Shown one piece after another: positions 3,244 through 22,393 of a stretch of DNA of 22,524 nucleotides. Positions within the stretch are counted from its first letter, which is position 1. The number at the start of each line of letters is the position of its first letter. Below the pieces are notes generated by a model that saw only the letters and a program-made list of their open reading frames with translations, made no database searches and was not told where the DNA came from. Location of the stretch: the IMG/VR virus record IMGVR_UViG_3300037492_000334, positions 1-22,524 of that record; one strand, given 5' to 3'. The position numbers and the translations under genes are program-made. The DNA comes from a virus.

Positions 3244-4560
3244 TCAATATGCGCTGAACCATTTTCCGATCGGGCAGGCCCCGGAGCACAGCGAAGACAA
3301 CCACTTGTCCCGGGCCTTGCACCCGCCGCGCAGCTTGCACCCCGCGCCGGTGAACTGGTTGCAGGGTCGGCAGTGCGTCTCTAGCCGGTTGATCGCCACC
3401 GCCAGCATCTCGGCCGGGTAGTCGCGGCAGTAGGCGGTGAGCAGGGCCGCCGCGTCTTGCTGCGCACAGCCCCGCCGTGCGAGCCCGCGGAACAACCCGA
3501 AGAACTTCTCGACGTTTGCCTTCCAAAGCCACGGCTGAATCCGCCGCTCCATCTCGGCCGCGTAGGCCGGGTAGTTATCAAGGCAGCGGACCACGCCGTC
3601 ATAGAGAGAATCTACGGTTTGGTCACAGAGCGCCCCATTCACTCCATCCTCAACCAACAGCGGCACGTTTCCCACTCGCGTACTGGCGATGACGCAACCA
3701 CAGGCTGCGGCCTCGAAGGGCGGATTCGGCTGCGACTCAGACCGACTGGTACAAACGTAGACCTGGGCCGCGTTGTACCGCGGAACAAGCTCGTCTTGCG
3801 GGACCCAGCCGTCTTCGCGCGTGGTGGTGCTCACCATGCGAAAGTCGGTTTCAATCCCCGCAGCTTCGAGCCGGTCGCGTAGGGGTACAGTCAACCGATC
3901 CCAGCCCTTTACCTCCCGGCCGTAGTTGCTGCACACGAACACGACCCGCCGCCGCCGCTCGACTTCCGGCAGAACCCGGAACGTCCTTTCGTCTACCCAG
4001 TTCGGGACATACCACGATCGCGGATCGTTGACTTCCTTCCAAGAGTCGTGGTGGACGAAAACCAACCAGTCGGCCCACTCGCGCGCTTTCTTCAGCCGCT
4101 CTCCGCCGCACAGGTCAAGGGCCGTCGTAATGGCGTAGACGAGGATCGACCGATTCTCCCGTTGTGTCGCAGCTTTGTACAGCCGATCTCGGCTGCTCGA
4201 CGGCAATAGGTAGGCAATGTCGGGATCATTGTCTAGCAGGTTCGCCCCAGCCCCAACGCTCACCTCGAAGTCTTCCGGTGTCCGGGCCTGCATTGCCAGC
4301 GCTCGCCAGTAGTGCGCCCACTTTGATTTGCCGTCATAGCCAATGGCCATCCGTATCTTGCCGTTGGCGACAATTCGCGGGAGACTGGCCTTTGCCTTTA
4401 GGGTGTCAAGCTTTGCTGATCGCTGCTTGCCGGCTGGTACCTTTGGGCACGCAACCCTGACCAGTTCTGCAATTTCCAGCGAGCAGGAAAGCTTGCGACC
4501 GCAATAGCGGCAGGCCACTCTGCCCTCATCGGCTTTGGTAAATTCACAGAGTCCGGTCAT
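3244..4560 (-). CDS. GT-B (family 4-like) glycosyltransferase with terminal Cys-rich segments
   Basis: A 438-residue protein. The N-terminus has a zinc-ribbon-like Cys set (C5, C17, C20, C26, C38). Residues about 65-360 form a GT-B glycosyltransferase: VVFVCSNYGREVKGWDRL opens the second Rossmann domain. SRSESQPNPPFEAAACG carries the E-x7-E donor-binding pair (E275, E283), followed by GNVPLLVEDGVNGAL. The last 45 residues are Cys-rich (C397, C400, C408, C414, C425, C429), with motif CKLRGGCKARD; this may bind metal or anchor the enzyme, which is a guess. It should transfer a sugar from a nucleotide donor; the acceptor is unknown. It sits in the late operon between a Cys-rich tail-region protein (six bases upstream) and a methyltransferase. 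Codon use seems slightly less GC-biased than in the head genes. Confidence 0.85.
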   Translation of the reverse strand: MTGLCEFTKADEGRVACRYCGRKLSCSLEIAELVRVACPKVPAGKQRSAKLDTLKAKASLPRIVANGKIRMAIGYDGKSKWAHYWRALAMQARTPEDFEVSVGAGANLLDNDPDIAYLLPSSSRDRLYKAATQRENRSILVYAITTALDLCGGERLKKAREWADWLVFVHHDSWKEVNDPRSWYVPNWVDERTFRVLPEVERRRRVVFVCSNYGREVKGWDRLTVPLRDRLEAAGIETDFRMVSTTTREDGWVPQDELVPRYNAAQVYVCTSRSESQPNPPFEAAACGCVIASTRVGNVPLLVEDGVNGALCDQTVDSLYDGVVRCLDNYPAYAAEMERRIQPWLWKANVEKFFGLFRGLARRGCAQQDAAALLTAYCRDYPAEMLAVAINRLETHCRPCNQFTGAGCKLRGGCKARDKWLSSLCSGACPIGKWFSAY

Positions 4561-7007: not shown

Positions 7008-9044
7008 CTACGATCCCCACATTGGCCGGTCATTGGCTCGGGCCCAGTCGGAGTATTTTTGGCGGGTGTTCTTCGCGGTCTCCTCGCTGGCCCGTGCGAT
7101 CCGGTCGAGCGTCGTGCCCGAGAGGCCGAGGCCGGCGACGCCCCGCGCCGAGAAGCTCCCGACGGTATGCGTTTTTCCGGTAAGGTCGAGGGCGCCGGGT
7201 TGCTTCCCACCAGCGGCGAAGGGATTTAGCTTTTTCCAGTCGATAGGCTTGACGGCGTTCGCTTCGCCGAGGGCCCGGGCGAATTCCGCGCGGGCGGCGG
7301 CGGCGGCGTCTTCGGAGTCTTTGACCGAGGCGTCTAGGTCCGCTTGGCGGCCGGCTTCGTCCGTGAGGTGTTTTGCGCGAATCCTCTCTAGCGCGGCCTT
7401 GGTCTTGGGGTCGGTGGGTTCGGCTGCGGCAAGGTCCTTGTTTTTCTGGTCTTCGATTGTCTTGTTTCGGGTATCGTAGCCGTGGCGGTTGGATTCCTCT
7501 TTCTGGGAGCGAGCCCCTTGACGCAGTACATCCTCCTGCATCTCTTTTGCAGTCTCTGGGGTAATCGCGCCAGACTTTTCGAGTAGCCCTACCATCCATC
7601 CGGCGATCGATGTGGACGTACTTCGCATGGTGGTCGCTATCGCCTGGTCTAGGTTGTTCCACGCCGTTTTCATGGCGGCCACGGCCTTTATCCACGTCCG
7701 CTCCATAGTGCCGATCGGGTCAACCCACAGTTCGCCAAACCATGACACAACGTCGTCCCAAGTGTCCATGAAAAACTTTGCGACCACGGCCCACTTTTGG
7801 TTGATCCATCCAATCCCCTTGGCCCATTCGAGTTTAAGCAGGGACCAAACTACTTGGGCCGCGGCGGCGAGGTCTCCGCCCATCATGGCGTTTCCGATCG
7901 CTCCCCAGGCCGCGGTGGCTTCGTCGCGGAGTTGGTAAAAGGCCCCCTTGATCCAGTCGATTGTGCTCCCCGCGGCGGTCCGCCAGTTGAAGAATGAGGC
8001 GGCAAGGGCGACGATTCCCACGGCGATCAGGCCCGGCAGGGAAATGATCGCGGCCAGTCCGGCGGCCACGGTGCCGATGATGGTCCCCACGGTTACGACG
8101 ATGGCGATAAAGCCCCCGACGGCTCCGGCGATCGCGGCGAAGACGTTCCCCAGGAGAATCAGGGCGGCCCCAGCGGTTGCGATCGCAAGGCCGATCTTGA
8201 AGATGGAGAGGATCAGGGCTTGATTCTGCGCGGCCCAGTCGAGGGCGGTCTTGATCCAGGCCGTAACCCTGGTGACAAAGCGGGTCATATAGGGCAGGAT
8301 CGCGGCGCTGATGGTCTGGCCCAGGCGGGCGATGGACTTGGTGAGGGTCTTTGTCGCGTTGTCGAATTCCTTAGCGGCTTGGGCCTCGGCGGCCGGGATA
8401 ATCAAGCCCCTGTTTGCGGCCTCGGCTGCAAAGCGGCGGATTCCGGCGGCGCCCTGCGACAAGAGCGGGAGAAGGTTCGCAGCGTTGCTCCCCAGTAGGT
8501 CGGTGGCGAGCGCGGCCCGCATGGCCGGGGCGGGGACCGCGGCTAGCGCGTTGGCGATGCTGAGGAGTTGGGTCTCGGGGTTCATCGCGGCCAGCGCGGC
8601 GGCGTTGAGGCCGAGGGCGCGAAACGCGGCGCCCGCCTCCTGGTTTCCGCGGGCCGCCTGGATGGCCCGGTCGTTGACGGCGGCCAGTGCTCCGGTGACA
8701 GCCTCCAAGGTGGTCCCCGTCTGGCCGGCGGCGAAGTCAAGCGCGGTGAGGGCTTCGACCGATAGACCAGTCTGGTTGGCCATTGTGGCGAAGTTGGCGC
8801 CGCTCTTGCTGGCGTCGGTCGCGGCGGCCTGCAACCAGCGGACCACCTTTTGCAGGGTGCCGACCATGATGTCGGCGCCGAGGGCTCCGACGATCGACGC
8901 GCCCACGGCTGCGACGCGGCGGCCGACGCTCGATATGGCGTCGCCCCAAGCCTGGAGCTTTCCCTGGCTGGCGCGGAGGCCGTCGACCAGCGGCGAATCC
9001 TTGAGGAATAGCTCGACGTAGGCTCCCCCGGCTTTGACGTCCAT
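7008..9044 (-). CDS. Tail tape measure protein
   Basis: At 678 residues this is almost the longest gene of the window and sits directly after the chaperone pair. Residues 1-270 are Ala-rich helices with TMP-like segments (ANFATMANQTGLSVEALTAL at 84-103 and a Gln/Ala repeat region). Residues about 275-352 form a long hydrophobic block of several membrane-type helices, typical of tape measures that insert into the host membrane. The C-terminal 250 residues are charged helices (LRQGARSQKEESNRHG). The tape measure sets tail length; at about 1.5 angstrom per residue this predicts a tail near 100 nm. ATG 9044 follows the frameshift ORF stop as TAG-CCG-ATG. No lytic-transglycosylase or peptidase motif is seen. 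Confidence 0.93.
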   Translation of the reverse strand: MDVKAGGAYVELFLKDSPLVDGLRASQGKLQAWGDAISSVGRRVAAVGASIVGALGADIMVGTLQKVVRWLQAAATDASKSGANFATMANQTGLSVEALTALDFAAGQTGTTLEAVTGALAAVNDRAIQAARGNQEAGAAFRALGLNAAALAAMNPETQLLSIANALAAVPAPAMRAALATDLLGSNAANLLPLLSQGAAGIRRFAAEAANRGLIIPAAEAQAAKEFDNATKTLTKSIARLGQTISAAILPYMTRFVTRVTAWIKTALDWAAQNQALILSIFKIGLAIATAGAALILLGNVFAAIAGAVGGFIAIVVTVGTIIGTVAAGLAAIISLPGLIAVGIVALAASFFNWRTAAGSTIDWIKGAFYQLRDEATAAWGAIGNAMMGGDLAAAAQVVWSLLKLEWAKGIGWINQKWAVVAKFFMDTWDDVVSWFGELWVDPIGTMERTWIKAVAAMKTAWNNLDQAIATTMRSTSTSIAGWMVGLLEKSGAITPETAKEMQEDVLRQGARSQKEESNRHGYDTRNKTIEDQKNKDLAAAEPTDPKTKAALERIRAKHLTDEAGRQADLDASVKDSEDAAAAARAEFARALGEANAVKPIDWKKLNPFAAGGKQPGALDLTGKTHTVGSFSARGVAGLGLSGTTLDRIARASEETAKNTRQKYSDWARANDRPMWGS

Positions 9045-9047
9045 CGG

Positions 9048-9329
9048 CTAGGCTTTCTGCTGTGTCAACATGGCCTTCAACGGGCGGAGGTCGTGAGAGA
9101 GCGGGGAGGCGTCGTTTTCGGCTCGCAAGTACGGGTTGACGTCGCGCGGCTTTAGCGCTGGGGCCGCTAGGCGGTTGGCGATGTTGCAGACAATGGCGGT
9201 GGTTCGCTCCCACTCGGCACGGTCTCGGGCGTCGGCGGCCCAGACGAGTTGCCGGAGGGTGAGAGGTCGAGGGTCGAGGCCCGCAATTCCGGCGAGTTGC
9301 CAAACACGCTCCCAGGTCCATCGGGATCG
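9048..9329 (-). CDS. Tail assembly chaperone, C-terminal part expressed by -1 frameshift
   Basis: In the -1 frame relative to gene 9167-9802, the minus strand from 9329 to TAG 9050-9048 encodes 93 residues with protein-like character. It reads WTWERVWQLAGIAGLDPRP, then LTLRQLVWAADARDRAEWER, TTAIVCNIANRL and PRDVNPYLRAENDAS. Third positions are strongly G/C here, while the zero frame below about 9330 turns into low-complexity Ser/Pro. The frame has no ATG or GTG until a Met near its end, so it cannot start by itself. Order (tail tube, chaperone, frameshift chaperone, tape measure) matches the lambda G/GT arrangement. The fusion would be about 250 residues. The switch lies around 9330-9370; the exact slip site is not evident. 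Confidence 0.78.
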   Translation of the reverse strand, partial: RSRWTWERVWQLAGIAGLDPRPLTLRQLVWAADARDRAEWERTTAIVCNIANRLAAPALKPRDVNPYLRAENDASPLSHDLRPLKAMLTQQKA

Positions 9330-9802
9330 GCGGCGTCGGCCTTGGCCTCGGCCTGGTCGAGCACCTTTTCTATGTCGATCCGCCGGGCCCGGGCCTCGAT
9401 CCGCATGGCCGCGGCTGCGATGTTCTTCCTGGTCAAGCTGGTTTGCGTCTCGATGGCCTTGGCGAAGTGCTCTCGGCCGTCTTCTCGGAAAAAAAAAGCG
9501 TACTCCTCCATGAAGGCCGCGCGGGCATCGGCGGACGCTTTCCCGCCGATGGCCTGGGCGAAGTCGGCGGCCTCGATCTTGGCGGCCTCGATCTGTGGGG
9601 CCAGCAGGGCCCGCAAGACTCGGAAGAGAAGGCGGAGGTTGAGGTCGAGGCGGGTAATCAGCGGCGGCTTGCCTTCGAGCGGGTCGAGAAGGTCGATTGA
9701 TTCGTGGGTATCGTCGGCGGTCTGTTGGAACACGCGCTCGAAGGCATCAAGCGTTAGCTCGATCTTCCATGTTCTGTTGGCGTTGTCGGTGAAGGTGCGC
9801 AC
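9167..9802 (-). CDS. Tail assembly chaperone (G-like), zero-frame product
   Basis: The zero-frame product has 211 residues, with GTG start at 9802 and AGGAG ten bases upstream. Residues 1-155 look like a real helical domain (WKIELTLDAFERVFQQT; RLDLNLRLLFRVLRALLAPQ; a long helix rich in Ala, Glu and Arg). From about residue 159 on, the reading becomes Ser/Pro/Thr-rich with weak codon bias, while the -1 frame takes over the coding signal. It lies between the tail tube genes and the tape measure. Chaperones of this kind coat the tape measure so that tube subunits can polymerise round it. A T9 run at 9489-9497 lies inside the gene. Confidence 0.82.
   Translation of the reverse strand: MRTFTDNANRTWKIELTLDAFERVFQQTADDTHESIDLLDPLEGKPPLITRLDLNLRLLFRVLRALLAPQIEAAKIEAADFAQAIGGKASADARAAFMEEYAFFFREDGREHFAKAIETQTSLTRKNIAAAAMRIEARARRIDIEKVLDQAEAKADAADPDGPGSVFGNSPELRASTLDLSPSGNSSGPPTPETVPSGSEPPPLSATSPTA
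9489..9497 (-). other. T9 homopolymer with canonical slippery heptamer
   Basis: On the minus strand the zero-frame codons GCT TTT TTT TTC contain T_TTT_TTT and T_TTT_TTC, the only canonical X_XXY_YYZ sites I find from here to 9310 in the chaperone gene. The -1 frame is open from here to 9048. It lies about 165 bases before the point where coding bias changes frame, so it may be incidental. Confidence 0.4.
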
Positions 9803-9871: not shown

Positions 9872-10471
9872 TTAGCTGTCGCTGTCGTAGAGGGCGCCGA
9901 TCTTGAGAGCACTGGCTCCGGTGCTGTCGCCGTTGCTCACCGTAGCGGAGGCTACGGTATCGCCCGCAAGCGGGTTGGTTACTCCGAGGTCAGAGCACCA
10001 GAACCACGGCGCCCCGGCCGTCAGTTCGATGGCCAGTAGGCTGGATCCGCCCGAGGCGAGGAAGTCGACGTGGGAGCGTTTCGTGGCCACGGCTGCGAGG
10101 ATTTCCAGCAAGTCGCCGGAAAAGTCGATGTCAACCGTGGTCGGAACGCAGACCGTAACGGCGGTAAGGTTCGACGGCAGATTGTCGCCGGCTCCGCCCG
10201 TGATCGTGCAGGCGTTGACTACGACGGTTGCATCTACCCCGTAGCGCATTCCGCCTGTCCAGTAGATGTCAACCTTACCCGTGGTGATCCCGTGGAGGGC
10301 TACCAGGGTGATAACCCCCTGGGTGTCGTTGGTACGGGTCGTGAGTTGGCCGACTTTCGCGACGGCCAACGAGAGGTCTTGACCGATCAAGCCGGATGCG
10401 GTCCGCACCACCGATCCGCTGATGGTCACTCCCGCGATACTCGCGGCCTGGGTCATGGTGACGTTGGCCAT
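9872..10471 (-). CDS. Beta-rich tail-region protein (possible second tube or Ig-like protein)
   Basis: A 199-residue protein beginning MANVTMTQAASIAGVTISGS. It is rich in Val, Thr, Gly and Ala, with regular strand-turn-strand segments (GVITLVALHGITTGKVDIYW, VDATVVVNACTITGG, SSLLAIELTAGAPWFW). There is no signal peptide or enzyme motif. The gene sits between the tail tube gene and the chaperone pair, where many siphoviruses have a single tube gene. It could be a second tube-like protein, a tail decoration protein or a tail-associated lectin-like fold; I cannot decide. ATG 10471 is the first start in the frame. Confidence 0.82.
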   Translation of the reverse strand: MANVTMTQAASIAGVTISGSVVRTASGLIGQDLSLAVAKVGQLTTRTNDTQGVITLVALHGITTGKVDIYWTGGMRYGVDATVVVNACTITGGAGDNLPSNLTAVTVCVPTTVDIDFSGDLLEILAAVATKRSHVDFLASGGSSLLAIELTAGAPWFWCSDLGVTNPLAGDTVASATVSNGDSTGASALKIGALYDSDS

Positions 10472-10535: not shown

Positions 10536-10952
10536 TTAGCTCCACACGGGGACGCGGTCGTCGTCGTTGGCCTCGGCCTCGATCTTGTAGACGATGACGT
10601 TTTCCAGGTTTTCCTCCCGGTCGCATTTCGTGATTACGAAATCCCCGTCGGGCCCGGCTCCGGTCGCGTGATCGCGTGCCCAGAAGGCGAGCCGGCCCTC
10701 GTCGGTGAGGGAGGCGGCGACTACGGCGGCGACCCCGGCGTCGGTGTCGTTGTCGGGCATCTCGAACGAGATTTTCAGGGCTTTGAGAGTGCCCTTCGTG
10801 GACTTCCAGCCCAGTGAGGCGCGGCGGGTTCCGTCGGCGGTGCCTCGCTCGATCGAGAATTGGACGTTGGATGCGGCGGACAGTTCGGTGTCGGCCTGGC
10901 TTCCGGCGGTGCCATAGTAGAGTTTTCCGAGAAATCCAAGGCGTAAGGCCAT
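10536..10952 (-). CDS. Major tail (tube) protein
   Basis: The 138-residue product starts MALRLGFLGKLYYGTAGSQA, typical of short tail tube proteins that begin with a strand and then a loop naming the virion component. It continues with beta strands (NVQFSIERGTADGTRRAS, LKALKISFEMPDNDTDAGV) and ends with VIVYKIEAEANDDDRVPVWS. Length and fold pattern match siphovirus tube subunits. Position after the completion proteins and upstream of the chaperones supports it. The tube polymerises into hexameric rings round the tape measure. Confidence 0.82.
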   Translation of the reverse strand: MALRLGFLGKLYYGTAGSQADTELSAASNVQFSIERGTADGTRRASLGWKSTKGTLKALKISFEMPDNDTDAGVAAVVAASLTDEGRLAFWARDHATGAGPDGDFVITKCDREENLENVIVYKIEAEANDDDRVPVWS

Positions 10953-20535: not shown

Positions 20536-21045
20536 TCATGCTGTGTTCGGTTTGCGTGCCACTCCCCAGCAATCGACCCCGTTTGCGTCGTAGCCTATCG
20601 TGAGCGCTTCGAGGCCGGCCCACTCGAAGAGCGCGGCCATACCATCGGGCAGGATGCGCCAGCAGTCGATCGGGTAGCGGTGCTGCGCAAAGGTCCAAGG
20701 TGCAATGATGATCGCGTGTCCGTCTGGCTTGACGATTGAGGCAAGGCTGGCGATCCACTCCCAAGGTCGGCCGACGTGCTCAAGGCATTGGCCACTGATG
20801 ACCAGGTCGAAGCGGCTGGGGCATGGGGACGGATACCAGGGGCCGTGCTTTGGAACGACGTGGTCGACGTTGGGGCCTTCGGCTACGTCGATCCCGCAAT
20901 AGTACAGGTGCCGTTCGATGCACAGTTCCCGGTGAGTGCGTTGGCTGTGGTAAGCCATTGCGCCCACGTCTGCGACTGTCGACCCGGGCGCAAGGCCGAG
21001 GCCGTCGAGCAGTTCGCCCATCTTGGCAAAGGATGAAGCGTGCAT
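20536..21045 (-). CDS. Class I SAM-dependent methyltransferase
   Basis: I chose ATG 21045 because GGAAAGGA lies seven bases upstream; a TTG at 21078 has no comparable site. The 169-residue product has motif I TVADVGAMAY at 23-32, an acidic strand-2 end (YYCGIDVAEG, D53), motif IV FDLVISGQCLEHVGRPWEW, and a C-terminal GHAIIIAPWTFAQHRYPIDC with CWRILPDGM. That last set is typical of phage and glycan-locus methyltransferases that act on sugars. It stands between the GT2-methyltransferase fusion and the packaging genes. The substrate is not known; a surface or virion glycan is a guess. Confidence 0.82.
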   Translation of the reverse strand: MHASSFAKMGELLDGLGLAPGSTVADVGAMAYHSQRTHRELCIERHLYYCGIDVAEGPNVDHVVPKHGPWYPSPCPSRFDLVISGQCLEHVGRPWEWIASLASIVKPDGHAIIIAPWTFAQHRYPIDCWRILPDGMAALFEWAGLEALTIGYDANGVDCWGVARKPNTA

Positions 21046-21166
21046 GGCTATATCCTTTCCTTTCAAGTACGCCCACAATTGTCTCGGTCATCGCGGGAAA
21101 CTGGGTTCCTACCGGACAAACGTTGTTCGGCGGCGCCTTCCGATGTCTGGGTATGGGTTTGTGAAG

Positions 21167-22393
21167 TCATACTTCCAAGCGCCCAGGTGTTCTGTGCATC
21201 GGTTTCAGCAGGTGGGCAGCCACGTAGGGGATCTGCTGGGCCCGGTGCCACTGGCTCGGGTAGTGGGTGTAGACGCGGACGGCTTGAAACTTGGCTGGCG
21301 TGCCGATGTACTTGGCCTGTGCGGCACGGGTGTAGTAGTGGAAGCTGTTGGGGTTCCAGTAGCTTCGGTGCGTTGGGTCCTGAAAGGCTCCGCGGCCGTC
21401 GGTGCTGGGCGTGTTGGTGAGCATCCAGCCCCCAGGTGCAAGGCAGCGGTTCGCCTCGGTCATGGTGTGGATCGGGTCGCGTAGGTGTTCTAGGGCGTCC
21501 TGAGCGCGGAAGAGTCCGACCGATCCATCGGGCCACGGCCAAGGCCCATCGAGGTCGATCCCATTGCAGAGGTCGGCGCCTTCGTATGCTGTCGGCGGGT
21601 TCGGCCCGGAGCATAGGTCGACGGATCGAAGGGCTTTCAGGCTGCACCACTTGAGGCAAAGGCGCTCGATGTACTTGGTGTGGATTTCGAGCGTCTTGAC
21701 CTGAATCTCCCGGTTCCGCTCGCCCTTGCATGTGTTCGCGCCGTGGTAGTGGTACACGTAGAGGCAGCGGTCGACGTGCTTGACGTTCCCCGCCGCGTAG
21801 GTGCGGCAAAGCAAGTCTTGATCGTCCAAGACGTGGAGGCTTCGGTCGTGGCCTCCGATGGCCTCGTAGAAGCTGCGGCGCCACGCTCGCACGTGGTTGG
21901 GTGCGTACCAGATTCGGGAGAAGCTCGCCGGCGTAGGATCGAAGGCGATGATTTCCTGTTGCGGCCTTCCGGCCCACGTGAAGGGGCGATACTTCCAGCC
22001 GAAAACCGGCGAATAGGTGTAGGGCGTGCCGTCAGGCTTGATTTCGCAACAGTTGGAGAAGGCGAAGTCGACGGCCGGATCATCGAAGGCCCGGGCGAGT
22101 TCGTCGAGGCAGTCGGGGGTCAGTTCGTCGTCGTGATCCACTTCGACCAGTATGTCGCCGCGGGCCTGGTCGGCCGCAAAGTGCTTTAGGGCCCCGATGG
22201 CCGGCGTGGGCTCGTCGCTCGAATAGTCGACGGCGCGGGCCTGGGGAATCGAGAGCGATAGATCGGCCGTCCTGATTCCGGCATTTGGCACGACCACCCA
22301 TTCATAATCTTGGGCGGTCTGTGCTTTTAGGCTGGCTTCAAGGCGTCCGATCCATCGCGGGTTGTGTGTTGGGGTGAGGATCGAGAATCGCAT
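21167..22393 (-). CDS. Family 2 glycosyltransferase fused to a methyltransferase
   Basis: A 408-residue two-domain protein. Residues 1-250 are a GT-A glycosyltransferase: SILTPTHNPRWIGRLEASL opens the fold, VDHDDELTPDCLDEL at 85-99 carries the metal-binding DxD (D86-D88), and a central GGHDRSLHVLDDQDLLCR at 180-197 has the catalytic-base region. Residues 255-408 form a Rossmann methyltransferase (VDLCSGPNPP motif I; SVGLFRAQDALEHLRDP motif IV; FQDPTHRSYWNPNSFHYY). It would add a sugar and methylate it or a neighbouring group. It is the first complete late gene, upstream of a second methyltransferase; both suggest decoration of a virion or cell-surface glycan. ATG 22393 is used, 8 bases after the previous stop. 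Confidence 0.9.
   Translation of the reverse strand: MRFSILTPTHNPRWIGRLEASLKAQTAQDYEWVVVPNAGIRTADLSLSIPQARAVDYSSDEPTPAIGALKHFAADQARGDILVEVDHDDELTPDCLDELARAFDDPAVDFAFSNCCEIKPDGTPYTYSPVFGWKYRPFTWAGRPQQEIIAFDPTPASFSRIWYAPNHVRAWRRSFYEAIGGHDRSLHVLDDQDLLCRTYAAGNVKHVDRCLYVYHYHGANTCKGERNREIQVKTLEIHTKYIERLCLKWCSLKALRSVDLCSGPNPPTAYEGADLCNGIDLDGPWPWPDGSVGLFRAQDALEHLRDPIHTMTEANRCLAPGGWMLTNTPSTDGRGAFQDPTHRSYWNPNSFHYYTRAAQAKYIGTPAKFQAVRVYTHYPSQWHRAQQIPYVAAHLLKPMHRTPGRLEV

Follow-up and report, generated by a model that had tools for sequence, protein, structure and literature searches.

A small gene in the tail region of this viral contig is followed, just ahead of the gene for the tape measure protein, by a segment that reads like protein in another frame and has no start of its own, and the question that the locus raises is how this segment is translated. 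A preliminary description of the DNA had proposed a lambda-like arrangement, in which a −1 ribosomal frameshift extends a G-like tail chaperone into a GT fusion, and comparison with relatives strongly supports that proposal, with the shift placed at a different position from the one then favored.

Gene neighborhood and reading frames

The window, by which we mean the whole stretch analyzed, is a 22.5-kb virus record (22,524 nt) with lambda-like head genes, including a portal (PF05136, E value of 1.5e-42) and a terminase gpA nuclease (PF20454), both identified with Pfam. The features relevant here are all on the minus strand.

7008 to 9044, minus strand: tape measure protein (PHROG tape-measure families, best E value of 3.8e-26)
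9048 to 9317, minus strand: conserved T domain (TWERVWQLAGIAGLDP..TLRQLVWAA...), supported by homologues, some of which distantly match PF06223, Phage_tail_T
9048 to 9497, minus strand: −1 frame part of the proposed GT after the slip (linker and T domain), from reading frame analysis
9167 to 9802, minus strand: G-like chaperone gene of 211 codons in the zero frame, starting with GTG; an open reading frame conserved in relatives
9170 to 9497, minus strand: region free of stops in two frames, giving the C-terminus of G in the zero frame and the linker with the beginning of T in the −1 frame, from frame analysis
9488 to 9497, minus strand: candidate slip site T9C; it holds T TTT TTT and T TTT TTC, which overlap, are in frame, and are the gene's only X XXY YYZ heptamers
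9503 to 9509, minus strand: GGAGGAG, resembling a Shine-Dalgarno sequence and ending 5 nt before the T run, from the sequence

G is a small gene between the major tail protein region and the tape measure, as the upstream gene at 10536 to 10952 has a weak likeness to major tail proteins (PHROG E value of 0.011), and the tape measure, with its ATG at 9044, lies directly 3′ of the G/T region. We found no consistent Pfam or PHROG family match for G, no fold match at an E value of 0.001 or better with Foldseek, and no relatives when viral contigs were searched with the G part alone; the name therefore rests on position and on the fusion to T, and it is gene order together with this fusion that suggests a counterpart of lambda G. 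AlphaFold gave the G product a mean pLDDT of 85.5, with predicted structure up to about residue 158 (about position 9329) and low confidence beyond. This drop near residue 160 agrees with the preliminary observation that the zero frame loses its coding character at about 9329. A 199-amino-acid open reading frame just upstream of G (9872 to 10471, minus strand) had no Pfam or PHROG match at an E value of <0.1. Elsewhere in the window we observed two glycosyltransferase genes and methyltransferase-like domains (3244 to 4560, 20536 to 21078, and 21167 to 22393, minus strand), as well as an open reading frame with repeated GGCDLKGITLPQSVGGYLDL-like units that runs off the contig end (2 to 421, minus strand).

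The −1 frame of G does carry a start-less coding segment, and its TAG stop (9050 to 9048) falls three bases short of the tape measure ATG, both as first described. The segment had been taken to begin at 9329, which is where its protein character sets in (TWERVWQLAGIAGLDPRPLTLRQLVWAADARDRAEWERT), but the frame is already open from 9748, with the last upstream stop at 9749. As homologues occur in more than 300 viral contigs, the segment is more than a chance open frame, and on these comparative grounds it is real coding sequence for a T-like domain. This domain appears to be distantly related to Pfam Phage_tail_T, as 13 of 20 relatives matched PF06223 at E values up to 0.1, one of them (L030) at 34.7 bits, above the cut-off of 25.9, and the other listed relatives below it. 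The window's own copy, taken alone, had no PF06223 match, the fold search with T gave nothing significant, and no match was found in the cultured-phage records searched with either the T domain or the tape measure. The −1 frame linker of the window looks low-complexity and arginine-rich; a basic linker was considered as a trait of the whole family and rejected, the mean net charge across loci being about 0.

A conserved probable slip site and an open −1 frame

The T segment as sole query found one relative, a two-sequence T profile gave 25 loci from viral contigs and 5 from genomes, and a 20-sequence profile found 321 viral relatives, 80 of which were kept. Our first sample comprised 71 loci from viral and genome contigs, the window included, after removal of near-duplicates. 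The T domain was present in 41 of 392 genomes from the phylum of a Planctomyces metagenome-assembled genome, and 42 further nonredundant loci, with regions fetched from Planctomycetota genomes, made up the second sample. Eleven copies of the T domain were found on one chromosome (genome G356, contig C1), perhaps many related prophages.

With the frame of T relative to G decided by a G profile, T lies in the −1 frame in 70 of the 71 loci of the first sample and in 41 of the 42 loci of the second (111 of 113 when joined), and the arrangement of a start-less second frame that a −1 shift would fuse to G is conserved in relatives. In the sole exceptions, L021 and L148, T is found in the +1 frame; such an offset corresponds to a difference of one base and could reflect decay, an error, or another kind of shift. 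None of the 113 loci has G and T in a single continuous frame, the outcome that the preliminary description had named as evidence against frameshifting.

G contains two zero-frame X XXY YYZ heptamers, at 9497 to 9491 and 9494 to 9488, and none elsewhere in the gene; a slip there would lie at codons 103 and 104 of 211. Of 70 loci, 61 have a heptamer of the form T TTT TTC/T at one and the same G codon pair (T TTT TTC in 59 and T TTT TTT in 2), usually in an Asp-Phe-Phe context, with the T9 of the window at this place, and the heptamer is also present in 31 of the 42 loci of the second sample. The run is exactly six Ts long in 57 of the 61 heptamer loci counted. In the 61 loci, the codon ahead of Phe-Phe always ends in T and is GAT in 51; the G genes are GC-rich and prefer GAC to GAT (494:216) and TTC to TTT (160:59). 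Among 114 Phe-Phe pairs from other long open reading frames on these contigs, 9 have this form (P = 6e-29), so the in-frame heptamer is conserved beyond codon preference. The locus L021 is included in the start-codon and T-run counts and in the anti-Shine-Dalgarno and folding statistics and is left out of the 70-locus heptamer and stop counts, as its T is not in the −1 frame of G.

The −1 frame is free of stops from the heptamer to T, with 0 in 2,954 codons compared with 171 in 6,552 codons upstream in G (P = 1e-28), and synonymous codon shuffles within the interval gave a mean of 28.9 stops and a minimum of 16 in 1,000 trials. The second sample likewise had 0 stops in 1,501 codons. Five loci have a −1 stop immediately next to the heptamer, so that the −1 frame opens exactly there. 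For the window alone the test carries no signal, as 0 stops are expected under shuffling, and it is informative for the family only. Comparing homologues in both frames, as the preliminary description had advised, thus finds both the slip site and the −1 open reading frame conserved. The T run at 9497 to 9488, canonical in form and conserved in relatives, is the likely slip site. The preliminary description had correctly located the gene's only heptamer site at the T9 run, upstream of the switch in coding character, and had set it aside in favor of a new kind of site near 9330 to 9370, an idea that found no support.

In relatives, pairing with the anti-Shine-Dalgarno sequence is greatest immediately 5′ of the heptamer and surpasses that of a synonymous null model (P = 2.7e-7), and the GGAGGAG of the window is a probable stimulator of the shift. 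RNA folding is strongest right after the heptamer (family mean z of −0.79, with other stretches at −0.30 to 0.07); the downstream structure in the window is weak (z of −0.89 against dinucleotide shuffles, a test with pseudoknots outside its range).

The canonical heptamer is missing from 9 of 70 loci in the first sample and 10 of 42 in the second. Most of these loci retain xxT TTY where the heptamer would stand, and in those with a located site the −1 frame has 0 stops in 879 codons up to T. In one branch (L062, L078, L138, L140, L142, L158, and L161, alignment A4), T TTC TGC replaces T TTT TTC, and an invariant 8-bp hairpin (GCCCGAGG..CCTCGGGC), conserved at third codon positions too, follows four bases after the site. 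As a stimulator-like element this hairpin is a lead, its stem being invariant and thus offering no covariation to test. The natural series of sites, from T9 through T6C and T TTT TCC to T TTC TGC with the hairpin, could be used to test the trade-off between slipperiness and stimulators.

Proposed mechanism and alternative explanations

The comparison of relatives establishes the relation between the two frames, conservation at the slip site, the open −1 frame, and the homology of T, and we estimate at roughly 90% the probability that a programmed −1 ribosomal frameshift at the T run makes GT from the G gene. From here we infer the occurrence of slipping, its rate, and the roles of G and GT. 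Ribosomes would read G in the zero frame as far as the T run at 9497 to 9488, where the P-site and A-site Phe-tRNAs would slip back one base with pairing retained, at a rate probably raised by the upstream GGAGGAG and, in many relatives, by downstream RNA structure. The majority of ribosomes would remain in frame and produce G (211 amino acids), and a minority would continue in the −1 frame to produce GT (251 amino acids), consisting of 104 G residues, a linker of about 57 residues, and the T domain. If the roles are as in lambda, the tape measure would be coated by G, and GT would recruit the major tail protein through its T part.

A shift closer to the T domain, at an unrecognized or noncanonical site around 9330 to 9370, would let GT retain the structured C-terminal part of G, and it has in its favor that structure and coding character in the zero frame extend to about residue 158 and that the −1 frame is coding-like only afterwards. 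We consider it unlikely, as it would need neither the stop-free interval reaching back to the heptamer nor the conservation of the heptamer and explains neither, and relatives share no motif in this region. The A AAG within “gaa aag gtg” and the triplets CCC and GGG were among the candidates there that were rejected for this reason. When two frames overlap over a long stretch, a search for the slip at the change of coding character points to the wrong place. Slippage of RNA polymerase on the T9, giving messages of mixed length of which some encode GT, would act at the same place, and a run of nine Ts as in the window is long enough for it. The relatives, however, keep the same arrangement with six Ts or, in one branch, with only T TTC TGC, and the Shine-Dalgarno-like element points to the ribosome; polymerase slippage is disfavored as the mechanism of the family by these six-T and shorter sites, though at the T9 of this phage it may still occur, and we give it a very small chance overall.

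As T is a distinct domain directly ahead of the tape measure, it might instead be made separately, from an internal start or by reinitiation. This we regard as highly improbable, since the interval from the slip to the T motif contains neither ATG nor GTG nor TTG in the window and in 54 of the 61 slip-heptamer loci, and since separate translation leaves both the heptamer and the missing −1 stops back to it unexplained. Last, single-base indels in homopolymers are a common sequencing error, and the preliminary description had offered an assembly error in this contig as the alternative to frameshifting. The same frame relation recurs in both samples, from many assemblies and with no continuous frame in any locus, and this refutes the explanation, to which we assign next to no probability.

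A long two-frame overlap and comparison with known systems

With the slip at the T run, 331 nt separate it from the end of the G stop, and about 110 codons are open in both frames. Changes at zero-frame fourfold sites are reduced in the overlap (49 of 344) compared with upstream (128 of 418; 14 disjoint pairs, P = 7.5e-8), which is as expected if both frames matter, with RNA constraint as an alternative. G and GT should share 104 residues and then differ. The predicted helices of G (residues 111 to 141 and 144 to 157) both lie after the slip point, so G would keep two predicted helices and GT would have the linker and T in their place.

The arrangement resembles that of lambda, in which the tape measure is bound by G and by the G portion of GT, T itself binds to the major tail protein, and frameshifting takes place close to the 3′ end of G (PMC5009743). 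Common to both are a chaperone gene before the tape measure and its extension, by a −1 shift, into a T domain that has no start codon; in addition, T relatives here have distant matches to Pfam Phage_tail_T, and the contig has a portal of the lambda family. The slip sequence differs (GGGAAAG in lambda, a T run here), as does the distance from the slip to the G stop, which is 24 nt in lambda and 331 nt here, far from the 3′ end. G here has no detectable similarity to known families, and the T profile of this family did not detect lambda T. P2-like phages use T-run slip sites (T6G in P2, T7G in Smp131, and T7C predicted in related prophages), and E′ of P2 reaches just 37 nt back into E (PMC3931495). 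The slippery T run, the −1 shift, and the tail chaperone position of P2 E/E+E′ and Smp131 are as here; the overlap is much longer here than the one in P2, and the likeness rests on arrangement, not on sequence relation. Shine-Dalgarno-like stimulators of frameshifting have been reviewed (PMC8211752), and dnaX-type cassettes combine a slippery heptamer with such an upstream element, as here, along with downstream structure, toward which the relatives show a trend. Unlike the dnaX type, the shift here would give the longer product, and the downstream structure is weak in the window.

We propose that these loci form a further G/GT frameshift family of viral contigs and Planctomycetota genomes, well supported by sequence comparison, with a T unmatched in the cultured-phage records searched. 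The kind of shift is already known, and the family appears to be a variant set apart by how far upstream the slip lies, by the length of the overlap between the two frames, and by C-termini that differ between G and GT. More tentatively, at somewhat less than even odds, in this Planctomycetota-associated family the shift may swap C-termini, with 40 to 60 or more codons functional in two frames, the G helices absent from GT, a constrained GT linker, and one branch relying on T TTC TGC with the invariant 8-bp hairpin.
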